Assembly (NCBI RefSeq): GCF_946886695.1
Contig: NZ_CAMPJD010000040.1
Coordinates: 1 to 45,176, forward strand
DNA length: 45,176 nt
Source of the DNA: an uncultured Pseudoxanthomonas sp.
Lineage (GTDB): Bacteria > Pseudomonadota > Gammaproteobacteria > Xanthomonadales > Xanthomonadaceae
Reading direction: 5' to 3'
The position numbers and the translations under genes were made by a program. Every line of letters begins with the position of its first letter. The stretch's first letter is position 1. Positions 28,427-43,109 of the stretch are shown here, one piece after another. The notes under the pieces are model-generated. The model was not told where the DNA came from. It saw nothing but the letters and a program-made list of their open reading frames with translations, and searched no databases.

Positions 28427-28449
28427 GTAGGAGCGACGTAAGTCGCGAC
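28427..28449 (+). repeat. REP/SMAG element, GTAG head on plus strand (left of RAYT)
   Basis: GTAGGAGCGACGTAAGTCGC followed by GAC: the GTAG tetranucleotide, then a hairpin GCGAC/GTCGC with a four-base TAAG-type loop. It lies 18 bases after the DUF1415 stop and is inverted relative to the copy at 29046. Confidence 0.9.
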
Positions 28450-28486: not shown

Positions 28487-28981
28487 CTAAGCCTGTAGCC
28501 ATACTGCATCCCAGTACGGATAGCTCCCGATCCTATCGACCAATCCAGCGCGCAATGGATTGGCGACCAGGTAGCGCGCGGCGGCCCGCAGGCCATCATC
28601 CGAACGGATCGCGCGATCATGGAAGCCAGGCGCCCACACACGTTGCGGACCTTCGGGCCTGGCCGCCGCGCGTGACGTATTGGTCTTCAGGCGCTGCACG
28701 CAGACGGACAGGGATTCCATAGCTCCCAACTCGATCAGCCCATGCCAGCGATCCGGCATGAGTACCCACGCCAACAGCCGGGAGCGATACCAGAGCCGCC
28801 TGTCGGTGGCCGCACGCGCGGCATCGTGGGCCATGGCAGGATCGGAGAACAGCGGTCGGCGGTCATGCGTGACGAAGGTGACCAGGTAGACCTGTCCTTC
28901 CGCTGACATGCGTCCGTGACGCAAAGCGGCGTGACCTCCAGTTCGTCGCAGGCAGTCGGCGTTATCCATGCCGGCGAGCAT
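28487..28981 (-). CDS. REP-associated tyrosine transposase (RAYT), degenerate HUH motif
   Basis: A 164-residue member of the Y1/HUH transposase superfamily (TnpA_REP type), which processes REP hairpins as single strands. Visible family parts are GQVYLVTFVTHDRRPLF (29-45), WVLMPDRWHGLIELG (72-86) and AARYLVANPLRAGLV with the catalytic Tyr137. In active members the middle motif reads DHxH; here the first His is Arg78, leaving only His80, so metal binding and catalysis are doubtful. It is flanked by inverted GTAG repeats at 28427 and 29046, forming a classic REPtron. The start at 28981 keeps the usual family N-terminal RRTGGHAALRHGR. Confidence 0.87.
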   Translation of the reverse strand: MLAGMDNADCLRRTGGHAALRHGRMSAEGQVYLVTFVTHDRRPLFSDPAMAHDAARAATDRRLWYRSRLLAWVLMPDRWHGLIELGAMESLSVCVQRLKTNTSRAAARPEGPQRVWAPGFHDRAIRSDDGLRAAARYLVANPLRAGLVDRIGSYPYWDAVWLQA

Positions 28982-29045: not shown

Positions 29046-29068
29046 GTCGCGACTCACGTCGCTCCTAC
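29046..29068 (-). repeat. REP/SMAG element, GTAG head on minus strand (right of RAYT)
   Basis: On the plus strand it reads GTCGCGACTCACGTCGCTCC then TAC, so on the minus strand it is GTAG-headed. It overlaps the end of the HAD gene: the TAG of GTAG (29067-29065) is that gene's stop codon. Confidence 0.9.
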
Positions 29069-31521: not shown

Positions 31522-31614
31522 GCATGAGGAAGGAAGACGTCATTCTACCGGCTGGCCGCTGGCTACCGTTTCCGACACCGCCCGTCGGCCACGGAAAACA
31601 AAGTGAAAAAAATG

Positions 31615-31643
31615 TTGCGCGAACAAAACAACCGGCGTATCGT
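31615..31643 (+). promoter_or_regulatory. Candidate sigma-70 promoter for the small-ORF transcript
   Basis: TTGCGC (31615-31620), a 17-base spacer and TATCGT (31638-31643) match four of six bases in each hexamer. Transcription would start near 31650, about 40 bases before the 41-codon ORF. The stretch around it is unusually A-rich for this genome (GGAAAACAAAGTGAAAAAAA). Confidence 0.4.
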
Positions 31644-31690
31644 GCGCGGCCTTCGGCCCCTGCGGCTGTTTTTTCACCAGAACGAATTCC

Positions 31691-31816
31691 ATGAAGCCCG
31701 CGTACGACATCGCCAACACGCTTGACCTGCAGCCATCGCGCTGCGGCCTGCGCGTGCATGCGTATGCCTTCGCTGCCAAGCGCGGCAGCGAATCCGCACG
31801 GCGCATGGACACCTGA
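31691..31816 (+). CDS. Small ORF, 41 residues, unknown
   Basis: ATG at 31691 to TGA at 31816, giving MKPAYDIANTLDLQPSRCGL then RVHAYAFAAKRGSESARRMDT. About 34 of 41 third positions are G or C, as in real genes here, and the composition (mixed, basic C-terminus) is protein-like. No strong Shine-Dalgarno is seen (CCAGAACGAATTCC before ATG). It has its own promoter candidate and a terminator 50 bases after its stop, so it appears to be an independent short transcript at the border of the RNA-repair locus. I do not recognise the family. It could instead be part of a structured RNA. Confidence 0.4.
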   Translation: MKPAYDIANTLDLQPSRCGLRVHAYAFAAKRGSESARRMDT

Positions 31817-31833
31817 CATCCGGCTGACTCCCT

Positions 31834-31858
31834 GGGAGATCGGCCACCCCGATCTCCC
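31834..31858 (+). other. Perfect 10-bp hairpin after the small ORF
   Basis: GGGAGATCGG (31834-31843) pairs with CCGATCTCCC (31849-31858) around the loop CCACC. No U-run follows. It is 17 bases after the small ORF stop and 10 before the terminator, so the transcript's 3' end is highly structured. Confidence 0.75.
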
Positions 31859-31868
31859 GAGGAACGCG

Positions 31869-31907
31869 AACGCCCTCGGGTCGCCATACCCGGGGGCGTT
31901 TTGTTTT
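31869..31907 (+). terminator. Intrinsic terminator of the small-ORF transcript
   Basis: AACGCCCTCGGG (31869-31880) pairs with CCCGGGGGCGTT (31889-31900), with one G-U pair, around an eight-base loop, and is followed by TTGTTTTC. It separates the small-ORF unit from the tRNA-like region downstream. Confidence 0.85.
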
Positions 31908-31975
31908 CAGCGTTCGCGGAGGATGCGCATGCATCGAGGTTCGTTTCTTTCCATCACGGAAATCCTTTTCCGCCC

Positions 31976-31993
31976 TGGGGCATCCGGGTAGCG
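31976..31993 (+). promoter_or_regulatory. Weak sigma-54-type promoter candidate
   Basis: The string GGGCATCCGGGTAGCG (from 31978) has GG and GC 12 bases apart as in -24/-12 promoters and agrees with TGGCAC-N5-TTGC at about seven of ten positions. It is noted because rtcBA in E. coli is driven by sigma-54 through RtcR. It may be chance in GC-rich DNA. Confidence 0.2.
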
Positions 31994-32000
31994 CGCGTGC

Positions 32001-32020
32001 GCGCCCCGAGGCAGGGGCGC
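32001..32020 (+). other. Hairpin GCGCCCC/GGGGCGC upstream of the tRNA-like elements
   Basis: A perfect 7-bp stem (32001-32007 with 32014-32020) and a six-base loop GAGGCA. A second short hairpin, GGGCGC/GCGCCC, lies at 32093-32107. The 32021-32170 stretch has no convincing ORF. It may be leader or part of the structured RNA. Confidence 0.45.
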
Positions 32021-32170
32021 GGCTGCGACCGGCGCATGTGCGCTGCGTCGTGATGCCCCGACGCGGGCTGCACGTGGGAAGAACATCAACAAGGGCGCAT
32101 GGCGCCCGAACGGATTGCCGGTTGGCGACAGCCGGCGATGGGGAGCATCGATCGAACACGCTACAGCGGC

Positions 32171-32187
32171 ACGGGTTTGTATCCCGT
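32171..32187 (+). ncRNA. Anticodon-arm-like hairpin, loop TTTGTAT
   Basis: ACGGG pairs with CCCGT over five base pairs and encloses a seven-base loop TTTGTAT. That is the geometry of an anticodon arm, with U33, a UGU triplet (Thr) and A37. No D- or T-arm of normal form could be built around it. It might also be a decayed T-arm, as GG-TTTGTAT-CC resembles GG-TTCGAAT-CC with C56 and A58 lost. Confidence 0.35.
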
Positions 32188-32247
32188 CCGGTGCGCGCGG
32201 CGCTGCCGTGGCGTATGCCGAAGCGTGGGGGAAGGTGTTCCTCGAGC

Positions 32248-32317
32248 GGACGATAGCTCAGAGGCAGAGCAGCGGCGCATGCCGTTGGCCGCCGGTTCGA
32301 ATCCGGTTCGTCCACCA
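32248..32317 (+). ncRNA. tRNA-like RNA with CCA end and a four-base anticodon loop
   Basis: A near-complete cloverleaf. Acceptor GGACGA (32248-32253) pairs with TCGTCC (32308-32313), then A and an encoded CCA (32315-32317). The D-arm is GCTC-AGAGGCA-GAGC (32256-32270). The T-arm GCCGG-TTCGAAT-CCGGT (32291-32307) has a canonical loop. Between them, GCGGC (32272-32276) pairs with GCCGT (32281-32285) around only GCAT, followed by a normal five-base variable region. The anticodon loop is thus three bases too short to decode. The acceptor has six clear pairs. It should still look like a tRNA to CCA- and elbow-recognising enzymes but cannot translate. Probably a tRNA mimic served by the RtcB/SPFH system downstream. 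Confidence 0.7.
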
Positions 32318-32318
32318 C

Positions 32319-32389
32319 TGGATAGCTCAGATGGTTAGAGCATCGGTTTCAGATACCGAGTGTCGCGGGTTCGACTCCCGCTCCAACGC
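32319..32389 (+). ncRNA. Second tRNA-like element, CAG anticodon, broken acceptor stem
   Basis: It starts one base after the CCA of the previous element. D-arm GCTC-AGATGGTTA-GAGC (32325-32341), anticodon arm TCGGT-TTCAGAT-ACCGA (32343-32359) with anticodon CAG, five-base variable region, and T-arm GCGGG-TTCGACT-CCCGC (32365-32381) are all well formed. The acceptor is not: only TGGA/TCCA (four pairs) can form, and no CCA follows. The short variable loop rules out a real tRNA-Leu, which CAG would imply. So this is a tRNA-like domain, not a translation tRNA. An arm-complete, end-defective cloverleaf next to an end-complete, loop-defective one is striking. Confidence 0.65.
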
Positions 32390-32438
32390 CTGAAAAGGCA
32401 CATGACCTTTCACGTCATGACATGGGGACGCAAGTCCC
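32388..32438 (+). ncRNA. Hairpin trio with a tRNA-Glu-type anticodon loop
   Basis: Three stems follow each other: GCCT-GAAA-AGGC (32388-32399), CATGAC-CTTTCAC-GTCATG (32401-32419) and GGGAC-GCAA-GTCCC (32425-32438). The middle loop CTTTCAC is the tRNA-Glu(UUC) anticodon loop as found in E. coli. The outer two are capped by GNRA tetraloops where D- and T-loops would be. The order mimics D-arm, anticodon arm, T-arm with the elbow loops replaced. Confidence 0.5.
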
Positions 32439-32681
32439 ACCCAGGAAACGCCCCGTGCGGCGTGACGCTTTCCCGCGACGGAGCGCAGGAAGACGGCATG
32501 TCGCAGCAGGGACGAAGCCGGCACCGCGCCCTCGACGCGGAGGCGCGCAGCGTTCGATGCGGTCCACCGATCGCACCCTCGTTGCGAAGCATCCGCCGAC
32601 AGCGCCGGCCGCCCGCCTCGCCTCCGTCCAGGGGCGTTTCCACCTTCTTCCGTCGATCGCAGTGTGCGGTCGACACACCAT

Positions 32682-32708
32682 CGTCGTGGCGTTCGATCCT
32701 CCACGACG
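32682..32708 (+). ncRNA. T-arm-like minihelix just before the SPFH gene
   Basis: CGTCGTGG (32682-32689) pairs perfectly with CCACGACG (32701-32708). Inside, after one mismatch, a G-C pair (32691/32699) closes a seven-base loop TTCGATC, which is a canonical T-loop with the conserved G53-C61 closing pair. It resembles a coaxial T-arm/acceptor minihelix. It ends 49 bases before the slipin start and could serve as a leader element bound by the encoded proteins. The rest of 32439-32757 shows no gene. Confidence 0.4.
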
Positions 32709-32757
32709 GTGTTCCCCAACGGATCGAACCACCAGAGCCAACAAGGAGAACAACGCC

Positions 32758-33891
32758 ATGCTTCTGAACAGCATGTTCTGGACCAAGAGGGTCGTGATCG
32801 GTGACGGCGAGCGCGGCCTGGTGTATCGCAACCGTCGGTTCGAGCAGCTGCTCGCGCCCGGCGTGTACCGCTGGTTCGACCCGATGGGTCGGGTCGAGGT
32901 GCGCACCTTCAACATCGCCGCGCCGGAATACGCCGGCCACGACGTCGACGCGCTGATCGCGCGCCTGGGCGACCGCCTGGGCGAGGTCTTCGTGCTCGCC
33001 GACATCGGGGTGGACCAGGTCGGCCTGGTGCTGAAGAACGGCAAGCTGGAAGACGTGCTGCCGCCCGGCACGCGGCGCCTGTACTGGATAGGCCTGGTGA
33101 AGGTCGAGGTGCAGGCCGTGTCGCTCGCCACGCCGGACGTGGACGTCGCGGTCGCGCGACGCCTGCGCCAGTTGGGTGCGTTGTCGAAGCTGGCGGTGGT
33201 GGCCGATGTACCGGCGGAGTTCGCCGGCCTGGTCTTCATCGACGGCAAGCTCGAGCGCACGCTGGCACCGGGCAGCTACGCCTTCTGGAACTTCCAGAAG
33301 AACGTGGTGGTGGATGTGGTCGACCTGCGCGTGCAGTCGATCGAGGTCTCGGGCCAGGAACTGCTGACCCGCGACAAGGTCAGCCTGCGCGTGAACCTGG
33401 CCGCCAGCACCCGCGTCACCGACGTGGTGGCGGCGCGGACCAAGGTCGCGAAGGTCGGCGACTTCGTCTACCGCGAGCTGCAGTACGGCCTGCGCAAGGC
33501 GGTCTCCGCCAAGACGCTGGACGAACTGCTGGGCGACAAGGCCTCGCTGGACGCCGACATCTTCGCCTACGTGCGCGGCCAGGTGACCGGCTTCGGCGTG
33601 GAAGTGCTGGGCGTAGGCGTGAAGGACGTGATCCTGCCGGGCGAGATGAAGGAGATCCTCAACGGCGTGGTGCAGGCGGAGAAGACGGCGCAGGCCAACG
33701 TGATCCGCCGCCGCGAGGAGGCGAACGCCACGCGTTCCCTGCTCAACACCGCGAAGCTGATCGACGAGTCGCCGGTGCTGATGCGCCTGAAGGAGCTCGA
33801 GGCCTTGGAGAAGGTCACCGAGAAGATCGACAAGCTCACCGTGTTCGGCGGCCTGGATGGCGTGCTGAAGCAATTGGTGACGTTGAAGTAG
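32758..33891 (+). CDS. SPFH/band-7 (slipin-like) protein without a membrane anchor
   Basis: A 377-residue SPFH-domain protein. The C-terminal half holds the band-7 core (SIEVSGQELLTRDKVSLRVN, LDADIFAYVRGQVTGFGVEV, DVILPGEMKEILNGVVQAEK) followed by a charged helix (about 300-360), likely coiled-coil and oligomerising. Ordinary slipins start with a membrane hairpin, but here the N-terminus (MLLNSMFWTKRVVIGDGERG) has none, so the protein should be cytosolic. Three copies of a GLVxxxGKxExxLxPGxYxxW-type motif occur at about 20-39, 89-110 and 157-177. AAGGAGAACAACGCC precedes the ATG. It is followed by the unknown gene and rtcB on the same strand. A scaffold role in RNA repair is inferred from context and from published surveys of RtcB systems. 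Confidence 0.87.
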   Translation: MLLNSMFWTKRVVIGDGERGLVYRNRRFEQLLAPGVYRWFDPMGRVEVRTFNIAAPEYAGHDVDALIARLGDRLGEVFVLADIGVDQVGLVLKNGKLEDVLPPGTRRLYWIGLVKVEVQAVSLATPDVDVAVARRLRQLGALSKLAVVADVPAEFAGLVFIDGKLERTLAPGSYAFWNFQKNVVVDVVDLRVQSIEVSGQELLTRDKVSLRVNLAASTRVTDVVAARTKVAKVGDFVYRELQYGLRKAVSAKTLDELLGDKASLDADIFAYVRGQVTGFGVEVLGVGVKDVILPGEMKEILNGVVQAEKTAQANVIRRREEANATRSLLNTAKLIDESPVLMRLKELEALEKVTEKIDKLTVFGGLDGVLKQLVTLK

Positions 33892-33953
33892 CAAACCGTG
33901 GCGGCCGCATGGACGCGGCCGTCGCGGTCCACAAGGATGAAAGGACGACACAC

Positions 33954-34709
33954 ATGCGCAATGACATGTTCAAGGTCATCGTGGAGCGGCCGCGGCGCGG
34001 AGGAAGTTACGCCCGCGAGCGTACGCCGCACGCCAACGATGAAGGTGCGCCGGTTCAGGAAAGCCTGCGCTGGCGCCACCGGCACCGGAAATGGCTCAAC
34101 GAGAACCTGCGACCGCTGGAACGCTACCTGGACGGACAGGTCGGCAGGCCTTGGGACAAGGTGTATTCGGAGATCTGTTCCGGCATCGATCGGCGAAGCA
34201 CCGTGCAGCAGCACATCCATCAGCATCTGGCCGATTTCGTGGCGATGCGGCTGTCGATCATCGATGGCCGGTTGCACTGGCTCAAGGGCTGGGGACGGCC
34301 GACGCCGTTGGCCGACCGCCGGGCGCCGAAGCTCTGCGTGGATCCGGCGACGGGACTGCTGCGCCGCAATCGCGAACGCGAGCAGCTTCGTCGGCAGGAA
34401 CGGGCGACGTGGTCGATGCTGGAGCACACGCCAGACCGCATCGATCTGGGGCCGCTGCGTCAGCTGCACCGCCTGCAGGGCATCTGGTACGAGGTCGAGT
34501 TGGCCCTGATCCCGCCCGCCGGTCGTGGCCGAGGCGTCACCGACGTGGTGCGAGGCTGCACCGTCGTCGCCTACAGCCATCGGGGCGCAGGACGGCACGT
34601 CGTCCAGCGCGACCGGGCACTCTACGGTAGCGACGAAGTCTACGCGCGCCACAAGCGACAGCTCGATACACGCGAACTGCGCGTGCATCGACTCCACAAC
34701 ACACAATGA
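33954..34709 (+). CDS. Arg-rich protein of unknown family in the SPFH-RtcB operon
   Basis: A 251-residue soluble, strongly basic protein (many Arg and His, for example RWRHRHRKW at 39-47 and RRNREREQLRRQER at 137-150). Likely conserved pieces are MFKVIVERPRRG at 5-16, WLNENLRPLERYL at 47-59, GRPWDKVYSEI at 64-74, CVDPATGLLRRN at 128-139 and GIWYEVEL at 176-183. I cannot name the family and see no known catalytic motif. Basicity and its position between an SPFH protein and an RNA ligase suggest RNA binding, perhaps of the tRNA-like RNAs upstream. The ATG at 33954 is used; 33909 and 33966 are alternatives. There are 62 bases to the slipin stop and 52 to rtcB. Confidence 0.75.
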   Translation: MRNDMFKVIVERPRRGGSYARERTPHANDEGAPVQESLRWRHRHRKWLNENLRPLERYLDGQVGRPWDKVYSEICSGIDRRSTVQQHIHQHLADFVAMRLSIIDGRLHWLKGWGRPTPLADRRAPKLCVDPATGLLRRNREREQLRRQERATWSMLEHTPDRIDLGPLRQLHRLQGIWYEVELALIPPAGRGRGVTDVVRGCTVVAYSHRGAGRHVVQRDRALYGSDEVYARHKRQLDTRELRVHRLHNTQ

Positions 34710-34761
34710 TGAGAATCCGTCCGGGGCGCCGATGCGACTCGCAGACGAAAGGAAAAGGAAC

Positions 34762-35979
34762 ATGAGCACTACGTTCGAACTGCTGCACGCCGAGGGCAGC
34801 GCCACGCCGATCAAGGGCTGGGTGCGCGGCGTGCCCCTGGACCAGGGCGCCCACGAGCAGCTGCGGAACATCGCGGCGATCCCGTTCGTCGGCCCGTGGG
34901 TCGCGGTGATGCCCGACGTGCACCTGGGCAAGGGCGCCACCGTGGGCTCGGTCATCCCGACCCGCGGCGCCATCATCCCGGCCGCCGTCGGCGTGGACAT
35001 CGGCTGCGGCATGGCCGCAGTGCGCACCACGCTGCGCGCGAAGGACCTGCCGGACAGCCTGGCGCAGTTGCGCTCGAGCATCGAACGCAGCGTGCCTGTG
35101 GGCAACGGCCGCGGTGGCGAGCACTGGAAACTGCCCGACAGCATTGCCACGCGCATCGCGCAGTCGGGGCTGGAGCCGCGTCTGGAGGCGATCAAGCAGA
35201 AGCACCGCAAGATCCGCACCGACAAGCTGGACCGCCAGATCGGCACGCTGGGCGGCGGCAACCACTTCATCGAGATCTGCCTGGACGAGGCCGACGCGGT
35301 GTGGGTGATGCTGCACAGCGGTTCGCGCGGCACCGGCAACCTGATCGGCACGTACTTCATCGAGCGCGCGCGCGAGCAATTGGCGCACCGCGTGCTCGGC
35401 TTCCACCTGCCGGACAAGGACCTGGCCTTCTTCATGGAAGGCGAGCCCCTGTTCGACGACTACGTGGAAGCGGTGTCGTGGGCGCAGGACTATGCCCGCG
35501 AGAACCGTGAGGCGATGATGTCGCGCGTGCTGGCCGAGATGCGCCACCGCCTGCCGAAGTTCCAGTTGGAGAAGATGGCAGTCAACTGCCACCACAACTA
35601 CGTGCAGAAGGAAATGCACGGCGGCATGGACCTGCTGGTCACCCGCAAGGGCGCGGTGAGCGCGCGTGCCGGCGAGCTGGGGATTATCCCCGGCAGCATG
35701 GGCGCGAAGAGCTTCATCGTGCGCGGCAAGGGCAACGCGGACAGCTTCCACAGCTGCAGCCACGGGGCCGGCCGCGTATTGAGCCGTACCGCCGCGCGCC
35801 AGCAGATCACGCTGTCGCAGCACCGCGAGGCCACCGCGCACGTCGAATGCCGCAAGGACGCCGGCGTGATCGACGAGTCACCGGCGGCCTACAAGGACAT
35901 CGACGCCGTGATGGCCGCGCAGAGCGACCTGGTGGAGGTGCTCCACACGCTGCGCCAGGTGGTGTGCATCAAGGGGTGA
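34762..35979 (+). CDS. rtcB: RNA-splicing ligase RtcB
   Basis: A 405-residue GTP/Mn-dependent ligase that joins 3'-phosphate or 2',3'-cyclic-phosphate RNA ends to 5'-OH ends, as produced by tRNA-cutting toxins. All metal and catalytic residues are visible: Asp79 and Cys82 in GVDIGCGM, His168 in GTLGGGNHFIE, His185 in LHSGSRGTG, His278 in NCHHNY, and the guanylylated His334 in SFHSCSHGAGR. Length matches E. coli RtcB (408). The ATG at 34762 lies after GGAAAAGGAAC; the longer frame from 34525 overlaps the unknown gene and is rejected. RtcA and archease are absent from the window. A strong terminator begins inside the last codons. Confidence 0.97.
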   Translation: MSTTFELLHAEGSATPIKGWVRGVPLDQGAHEQLRNIAAIPFVGPWVAVMPDVHLGKGATVGSVIPTRGAIIPAAVGVDIGCGMAAVRTTLRAKDLPDSLAQLRSSIERSVPVGNGRGGEHWKLPDSIATRIAQSGLEPRLEAIKQKHRKIRTDKLDRQIGTLGGGNHFIEICLDEADAVWVMLHSGSRGTGNLIGTYFIERAREQLAHRVLGFHLPDKDLAFFMEGEPLFDDYVEAVSWAQDYARENREAMMSRVLAEMRHRLPKFQLEKMAVNCHHNYVQKEMHGGMDLLVTRKGAVSARAGELGIIPGSMGAKSFIVRGKGNADSFHSCSHGAGRVLSRTAARQQITLSQHREATAHVECRKDAGVIDESPAAYKDIDAVMAAQSDLVEVLHTLRQVVCIKG

Positions 35980-36000
35980 GCTTCGGCTCGCCCCTTTTTT
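35973..36000 (+). terminator. Intrinsic terminator of the rtcB operon
   Basis: GGGGTGAGC (35973-35981) pairs with GCTCGCCCC (35986-35994) across a TTCG loop and is followed by TTTTTT. The stem includes the rtcB stop TGA. Confidence 0.93.
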
Positions 36001-36008
36001 TCTTCTCT

Positions 36009-36073
36009 GTGGGAGCGACGTAAGTCGCGATGAGGCATTACCGGTGGCCCATCGCGACTTACGTCGCTCCCAC
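36009..36073. repeat. Inverted REP pair (BIME) between rtcB and ybbP
   Basis: The left copy GTGGGAGCGACGTAAGTCGC (36009-36028, continuing GAT) and the right copy (36051-36073) are perfect inverses over 23 bases, with 19 bases between. The head is GTGG instead of GTAG. They lie between the rtcB terminator and the convergent ybbP stop. Confidence 0.9.
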
Positions 36074-43004: not shown

Positions 43005-43109
43005 GTAGGAGCGACGTAAGTCGCGACCGTATCCTCACGGCCGCCGTCGCCAGCGGGTCAGGCATCGCAGTCGCCTCGGATCTGCGGTCGCGACTTACGT
43101 CGCTTGTAC
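43005..43109. repeat. Inverted REP/SMAG pair upstream of the amidohydrolase
   Basis: GTAGGAGCGACGTAAGTCGC plus GAC (43005-43027) and its inverse (43087-43109), which has one or two changes at the head (CGCTTGTAC instead of CGCTCCTAC). They are separated by 59 bases without a gene and lie between the amidohydrolase start and the aldo/keto reductase stop. Confidence 0.9.

Follow-up and report, generated by a model that had tools for sequence, protein, structure and literature searches.

Separated tRNA parts precede an SPFH and RtcB locus in Pseudoxanthomonas and may act as a bait in RNA repair

In a 45,176-nucleotide contig of an uncultured Pseudoxanthomonas sp. (NZ_CAMPJD010000040.1 of assembly GCF_946886695.1; this whole stretch is hereafter called the window), we analyzed an array of tRNA-like RNAs that precedes the genes for an SPFH/band-7 protein and the RNA ligase RtcB. 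Comparison with related loci shows that separated parts of a tRNA, namely two elbows and often a free anticodon arm, are conserved before the SPFH gene, and that RtcB is encoded in most of these loci. We tentatively propose, with a probability of about 0.4, that the array represents the RNA half of an RNA-repair machine, i.e. a bait that would be held by SPFH and renewed by RtcB. An earlier note on the bare sequence had described tRNA-like RNAs, SPFH, a basic gene of no nameable family, rtcB, and a terminator on one strand, and this description proved to be real. The main elements follow each other in this order:

32247-32317, + strand: TL1, tRNA-like RNA (Rfam RF00005, 47.2 bits; ARAGORN)
32316-32390, + strand: TL2, tRNA-like RNA (Rfam RF00005, 51.9 bits; model R1, 81 bits)
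32401-32419, + strand: free anticodon-stem-loop hairpin CATGAC-CTTTCAC-GTCATG
32758-33891, + strand: SPFH/band-7 protein of the slipin/stomatin type, 377 amino acids (Pfam PF01145 Band_7, 2e-30)
33954-34709, + strand: MID, basic protein of 251 amino acids, no named family
34762-35979, + strand: RtcB RNA ligase, 405 amino acids (Pfam PF01139, 1e-124)
35971-35996, + strand: terminator-like hairpin overlapping the rtcB stop codon (11-bp stem, then a T tract)

ARAGORN and Rfam each called the two tandem tRNA-like genes on the + strand (32247-32316 and 32316-32390), and no tRNA-like call was made beyond TL1 and TL2 within the window. The closest named relative of the locus is a Pseudoxanthomonas metagenome-assembled genome (L089; SPFH, 96%).

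The SPFH gene is common. Within the genus, 28 of 38 genomes have an orthologue (E ≤ 1e-60); orthologues were also found in 79 of 247 genomes sampled from the family and in 15 of 274 sampled from the class. For the analysis of the upstream RNA, an SPFH profile served to select 84 loci in named genomes and viral contigs, and 79 of these loci have at least 700 nt upstream. ARAGORN reported a same-strand match no more than 900 nt upstream in 67 of these 79 loci, a count that takes in loci inside ordinary tRNA arrays; 24 loci have two or more matches, and the background amounts to 0.14 per kb. Of the 12 loci without an ARAGORN match, 11 were recovered with a covariance model built from 50 TL2s (R1; alignment A3), albeit only partly in L113; none of the 11 had contributed to the training of the model. 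Together, the two methods place a tRNA-like RNA upstream of SPFH in 78 of 79 loci, L130 being the exception. At SPFH-paralogue controls, ARAGORN found nothing (0/6) and R1 gave one weak match (14.7 bits, E 0.06). Forty further family loci were fetched afterwards, 39 of which were long enough, and R1 identified a full TL2 in 38 of them and the T-arm alone in one. Three of these are duplicates: L253 and L261 are identical to discovery loci (the twin of L261, L116, had trained R1), and L284 is identical to another fresh locus. After their removal, 35 of 36 distinct fresh loci carry a full TL2.

The stems of the RNA covary. In alignment A3, 97.2% of cells are paired, two-sided changes occur in 14 of 19 pairs, and the covariation score is 0.629 compared to 0.153 after shuffling. 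The conserved loci come from beta- and gammaproteobacteria. The upstream RNA is thus conserved with the operon in sequence, structure, and place, and it co-occurs with the SPFH gene; on covariation as well as on co-occurrence, the outcome agrees with the proposal of the earlier note. RtcB follows SPFH in all 18 same-genus relatives and is encoded in 36 of the 50 loci that extend for 6 kb or more to each side (53/84 of all loci). In the window and ten relatives scanned, no Rfam family except tRNA reaches its cut-off.

TL1 has a 6-bp acceptor, a D- and a T-arm, and an anticodon arm with a short loop. The CCA encoded at its end (32315-32317) overlaps with the 5' end of TL2, to which TL1 is fused. 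TL2 combines a near-invariant elbow with a 4-bp acceptor containing mismatches and a hypervariable anticodon loop (TTCAGAT in the window). Neither RNA of the window has the ordinary 7-bp acceptor stem, which is present in some relatives. The anticodon stem of TL2 is maintained, with a full 5 bp in 43 of 44 TL2s, and the SPFH-nearest ARAGORN matches of all loci include 93 seven-nucleotide loops with 38 different anticodons. While U33 is present in 41 of 41 distinct genuine tRNA loops of the nearest genome (G001), and also in the TL2 of the window itself, it is not kept in TL2 across relatives.

We quantified this pattern by Fitch counts on the SPFH tree with the unfiltered family alignment, covering 61 Lysobacteraceae loci (61/64 sequences). 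Most D- and T-arm sites of TL2 show 0-2 steps. The counts are 21 at position 33, 25, 20, and 21 at positions 34-36, 4 at position 37, 19 and 22 at positions 44-45, and, in the T-loop, 26 at the free site 59. A stricter set comprised 44 of 64 TL2s of equal length, selected with a pattern that fixes most body letters, which partly builds in the near-zero body counts; here, we counted 17 steps at position 33, 23, 15, and 14 at 34-36, 1 at 37, and 19 at 59. Four-fold sites of SPFH in this 44-locus set average 4.7 steps and reach at most 14, a rate that GC bias may slow. Exchange of leaders between lineages may account for part of the steps in TL2. Positive selection on the TL2 anticodon is not claimed, since N59 changes as fast (26 steps compared to 20-25). 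Judged from these comparisons, TL2 is not a decoding tRNA: its elbow is kept and its anticodon is free, A37 much less so. This conclusion follows from the lack of a kept U33, the short acceptor, and the exchange of the anticodon on a nearly constant body, and it bears out the earlier view that TL2 is disabled for translation. For TL1 of the window, the same view is supported by its 6-bp acceptor and short anticodon loop.

By eye, an extra armless half-tRNA-like element, consisting of a short hairpin and a T-arm with no D-arm, was seen downstream of the tRNA-like match in ten loci (L117, L120, L121, L129, L137, L152, L157, L160, L163, L166).

The free anticodon arm was searched for as a hairpin within 60 nt downstream of TL2, with at least five Watson-Crick pairs and a 7-nt loop containing a pyrimidine at position 32, U33, and a purine at position 37. 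It is present in 54 of 62 family loci, compared to a mean of 0.1 of 62 in single-base shuffles; two of the 64 family loci were left out since their array lies too far upstream. Hairpins with a 7-nt loop that fail the loop pattern are found once in the 62-locus set and in 7 of 29 cases in the fresh set. In the window, the arm loop is identical to the tRNA-Glu(UUC) loop of the nearest genome. Overall, 48 of the 54 arm loops equal one of the 41 genuine tRNA loops of G001 (Asp 21, Glu 18, Tyr 8, Lys 1), and 52 of 54 carry NUN anticodons (Asp, Glu, Tyr, Asn, His, Lys). Loops of the host make up 3.9% of all loops fitting the arm pattern. On the tree, positions 32-38 of the loop show 1, 0, 15, 2, 11, 0, and 8 steps, with about 23 switches of identity. 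Positions 34 and 36 are thus swapped while the loop frame stays, a pattern expected of a changing bait.

Because the arm pattern had first been seen in the very set that was counted, we repeated the test on 38 of the 40 fresh loci, leaving out one that was too short and one with the T-arm only. The arm was found in 22 of 38 loci (0.07 in shuffles), and 17 of the 22 loops are host loops. Without the three duplicates, the arm is present in 19 of 35 distinct loci, with 14 of 19 host loops.

Further RNA modules surround TL1, TL2, and the free arm, and the structured RNA as a whole spans from about 32171 to the SPFH start:

31868-31901, + strand: terminator-like hairpin (14-bp stem, 6-nt loop, T-rich tail)
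32171-32187, + strand: 5' hairpin ACGGG-TTTGTAT-CCCGT, stem of at least 5 pairs, loop variable across relatives
32188-32219, + strand: conserved 5' module CCGGTGCGC..GGCGTATGCC, predicted to fold into a bulged hairpin
32425-32438, + strand: GNRA-loop hairpin GGGACGCAAGTCCC, kept in the family alignment
32444-32641, + strand: structured domain of about 198 nt closed by GGAAACGCCCC/GGGGCGTTTCC (RNAalifold)
32692-32728, + strand: hairpin CGATCC...GGATCG in the 5' untranslated region of SPFH (predicted by RNAalifold, covaries in part)

The upstream region had been described as mostly non-coding DNA with several tRNA-like folds. This applies to TL1 and TL2; the region also contains the anticodon hairpin, the GNRA hairpin, and the 198-nt domain. 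An extent of 1.2 kb, as had been suggested for the array, is not supported, since the stretch before 31901 has its own terminator-like hairpin and the RNA starts at about 32171. The hairpin at 31868-31901 probably closes an upstream unit and marks the left boundary of the surroundings of the array. Before it, a short open reading frame of about 42 codons was noticed by eye (31692-31820), possibly a small separate transcript between a methyltransferase gene and the array.

An exact GGCGTATGCC is present upstream in 45 of 59 family sequences, and L126, L132, and L144 are among other loci that have it. For the 5' hairpin, the best hairpin before this conserved motif was compared across 69 loci. 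Its loop has 7 nt in 43 of them, with a T at the second loop base in 37 of these 43, and just one of the 43 loops equals a host tRNA loop, so the hairpin was rejected as another tRNA anticodon arm. For the domain at 32444-32641, RNAalifold predicts a three-way junction from 38 sequences, and two closing pairs show two-sided changes (G-C to A-T, C-G to G-C). A long-range helix in distant loci was found in 22 of 54 at p ≤ 1/12, a weak signal.

Among the proteins, SPFH gave profile matches in the PDB to QmcA and to stomatins, the latter at about 1e-29, and some of the matched entries contain 16 or 26 chains. Proteins of this kind form rings or cages. An N-terminal membrane segment was not detected in SPFH by a crude test of hydropathy, in which the best 19-residue value was 1.58 at residue 74. 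RtcB aligns with solved RtcB chains and has the active-site Cys and His residues, which are presumably catalytic. In L143, L144, L154, L161, and L167, a small zinc-finger-like protein is encoded between SPFH and RtcB; the L161 protein, the sole one tested, matches Pfam zf_Tbcl.

MID has no match in Pfam, NCBIfam, PDB, PADLOC, or PHROGs. It is basic (48 K+R compared to 30 D+E) and has 685 homologues. It is present in the window, in 4 of 18 same-genus loci, and also in L116. MID is therefore optional, and the comparison does not support it as a core part of the system. In L088, from the same order, RtcB adjoins MID in an RNA-repair neighbourhood with RtcR close by and a polynucleotide-kinase-like open reading frame (the kinase was recognized by eye only).

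In the reading that we favor, the parts of the RNA have mixed roles: the elbows dock and the arm baits. We prefer this to a bait function of the whole array because TL2 fits a tether better than a bait. The elbows of TL1 and TL2 would dock the RNA on the SPFH oligomer and/or on RtcB, and the exposed loops, chiefly the free arm with its host loop (Glu, Asp, Tyr, Lys), would serve as bait for anticodon nucleases. Cleavage would leave 2',3'-cyclic phosphate and 5'-OH ends, which RtcB would reseal, thereby renewing the bait; true tRNAs may be sealed by this assembly as well. The bait loop would switch its identity fast because each lineage meets changing toxins. A bolder version, in which an SPFH cage would show a disassembled tRNA whose exchangeable anticodon arms are swapped in an arms race and resealed by RtcB, i.e. 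a self-renewing bait, appears somewhat unlikely to us.

The strongest argument for a bait is that the free-arm loops are identical to those of the host and that they switch. The NUN anticodon set of the arm loops includes known nuclease targets, which supports the bait; the colicin E5 target set is among them. PrrC and tRNA-Lys are one described pair of nuclease and target (PMC10264068), and in Salmonella, damaged tRNAs regulate the rtc operon (PMC7790460). The conservation and covariation of the RNA, the active-site residues of RtcB, and the induction of the PAK rtc operon by phage (see below) also count in favor of the bait.

A number of observations weigh against a bait. TL2 does not imitate a nuclease target well: its loops are mostly non-host, with a genuine G001 tRNA loop in just 9 of 44 (mean of 4.7 after column shuffling), and U33 is not kept. 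Nor does its anticodon evolve faster than the free site N59 (20-25 steps compared to 26), so positive selection is not shown. For the arm, the constancy of U33 and of the purine at position 37 partly arises by construction since both belong to the search pattern. Furthermore, loop diversity is low: of 9 distinct loops, just 4 are host loops, and 32.5 of 54 loops match the host even after the loop columns have been shuffled. Of the 35 distinct fresh loci, 16 lack the arm or have an altered one, and loci of the Xanthomonas type, along with some others, have a closed-up or changed loop. When a loose rule was applied outside the family set, an arm was found in 26 of 70 loci, often with Phe-type loops. 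From published work, deletion of rtcB in P. aeruginosa PAK left phage plating unaffected (PMC4933390), SPFH deletions in PA14 had no pronounced phenotype (PMC13086221), and the tRNA-like YrlA RNA of Salmonella was left uncut by the nuclease (PMC7790460).

Alternatively, the array might serve as a sensor that forms the 5' leader of the SPFH-rtcB mRNA and acts in cis. If its anticodon-like loops were damaged, or if damaged tRNAs competed with it, processing or translation of the operon would change, and repair would thereby be turned on without RtcR. SPFH immediately follows the array on the + strand, a hairpin scan of the window detected no + strand terminator-like hairpin between the two, and the structured domain reaches close to the SPFH start. 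In addition, RtcR was absent from all 19 examined same-genus genomes with the SPFH gene, which implies that another input is needed there. However, of 16 other genomes that carry the SPFH gene, 12 also have RtcR, 8 of them with a sigma54-like site upstream; the array is therefore not simply a substitute for RtcR. Taken together, we consider a leader of this kind unlikely.

The sigma54-like sites were located in two rounds. A strict pattern, applied first, gave a site in 4 of 79 loci. A relaxed score was then used post hoc on 33 loci, with p-values from single-base shuffles of 900 nt. With this score, a site of the TGGCAC type (p ≤ 0.03) was found in the 8 of 12 RtcR loci mentioned above (L116, L157, L163, and L168 are the misses), in 6 of 7 loci for which the RtcR status was untested, and in none of the 14 loci that were treated as lacking RtcR (4 of these had been tested for it). 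The sites lie 495-560 nt before SPFH (804 nt in L140), upstream of the array; L130, one of the eight loci, is the one in which no tRNA-like RNA was found. Because the site lies upstream of the array, the array probably heads an RtcR-induced transcript in taxa that have both RtcR and a sigma54-like site. In L161, an RtcR match lies in an open reading frame divergent from the array, and rtcR is annotated in that place in the Citrobacter locus L294. A 35-nt anticodon stem-loop of tRNA-Glu(UUC) has served as a binding probe for RtcR (PMC9650030). The rtcA/rtcB operon of P. aeruginosa PAK is upregulated nearly 80-fold upon infection with phage PAK_P3 (PMC4933390), and the SPFH gene PaFlo8 sits in the rtc locus of strain PA14 (PMC13086221); by analogy, the PAK operon may hold the SPFH gene, too.

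A purely structural role appears quite unlikely. In this case, the elbows would be handles joining SPFH, RtcB, and tRNA-handling enzymes, similarly to Y RNA for Ro60, and the unused loops would drift. The freezing of most TL2 elbow sites and an anticodon that evolves like an unconstrained site are in line with such a tether. The Rfam model for YrlA, moreover, scores the stretch from the TL1 T-arm to the TL2 D-arm, albeit with 29.6 bits and below its cut-off of 69; this junction resembles the permuted YrlA domain, and membership in YrlA was rejected on that score. Drift, however, would not give a free arm that equals a host tRNA loop in most loci having the arm.

We regard it as very unlikely that the array supplies spare tRNAs usable in translation, as true tRNA arrays beside the system may do. 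At least five tRNA genes are present on the operon strand in 13 of 87 loci (L107, L123-L126, L128, L134, L148, L151, L157, L170, L076, L080), with 33 and 36 in two of them, a possible pairing of spare tRNAs with RNA repair, and in Anabaena, rtcB, a slipin gene, and an operon of 26 tRNAs share the repressor TrcR (PMC10272220). For TL1 and TL2 themselves, a function as spare tRNAs is disfavoured: TL2 has no kept U33, has no full acceptor in the window, and bears any anticodon on one body. Finally, tRNA genes commonly serve as integration sites, and the array could represent functionless, degenerate tRNA genes left by the insertion of a mobile element; the conserved place, the covariation, and the frozen elbow in beta- and gammaproteobacteria rule out such debris for practical purposes.

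SPFH/Band-7 RNA-repair systems with a novel tRNA-like molecule were reportedly proposed by Burroughs and Aravind in 2016. Like these systems, the window has an RtcB ligase and an SPFH scaffold candidate, both in the operon, and a tRNA-like non-coding RNA that travels with SPFH. A literature search confined largely to open-access papers, and not extending to the 2016 proposal, turned up no description of how the RNA partner of SPFH-type repair systems is built or what it does. While the kind of system with RtcB, SPFH, and a tRNA-like RNA has already been proposed, the anatomy of the RNA and its anticodon pattern look new.

Several characterized loci resemble the window in part. Similar to the window, rsr-yrlBA-rtcBA of Salmonella has an operon RNA with a tRNA-like domain beside RtcB and is linked to damage, but it contains Ro60/Rsr instead of SPFH and has RtcR (PMC7790460). 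In the three operon proteins of the window, to which the search was confined, no TROVE (Ro60) match was detected. The rtc locus of P. aeruginosa shares with the window an SPFH gene (PaFlo8) inside an rtcA/rtcB/rtcR locus, whereas it is under RtcR/sigma54 control (PMC13086221, PMC4933390). Three other Pseudomonas loci (L145, L161, L162) have TL1 and TL2 and, by eye, a 4-bp anticodon arm with an Asn-, Asp-, or Gly-type anticodon. The TrcR regulon of Anabaena (rtcB, slipin alr0740, and the 26-tRNA operon trn) likewise combines RtcB, a slipin, and tRNA genes, which are co-regulated under translational stress; in contrast to the window, its genes are scattered, and the likeness is at the level of slipins by description (PMC10272220).

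A slipin-RlaP locus of E. coli, located between yjbD and lysC, encodes an SPFH protein 43% identical to that of the window, with an upstream RNA bearing a T-arm and a sigma54-like site upstream of the slipin gene. RlaP corresponds to the Pfam family 'RNA repair pathway DNA polymerase beta family'. Unlike the window, the locus has no full tRNA-like RNA according to R1, and no RtcB is annotated in the 13-kb stretch, for which the gene table is incomplete. Of 5426 complete E. coli genomes, 1617 contain slipin-RlaP over at least 80% of the query; it is lacking in both K-12 records among the listed genomes. The loci observed in this place are L292:5466-7950 (E. coli) and L294 (Citrobacter).

Apart from the locus, the window contains six REP-like elements of the GTRGGAGCGACGTAAGTCGCGA type in both orientations, compared to 0.06 expected, at 28427-28448, 29047-29068, 36009-36073, and 43005-43109. 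One pair flanks the open reading frame 28487-28981, a putative REP-associated transposase gene.

The difference between a frozen elbow with a free anticodon on the one hand and a host-identical, switching arm on the other allows decoy, sensor, and scaffold to be tested directly against one another. Should the bait reading be true, bacteria would possess a renewable form of defence against toxins that cut tRNAs and against abortive-infection nucleases. If, in addition, the bait renews itself, its anticodon would be a heritable record of the nucleases that a lineage has met.

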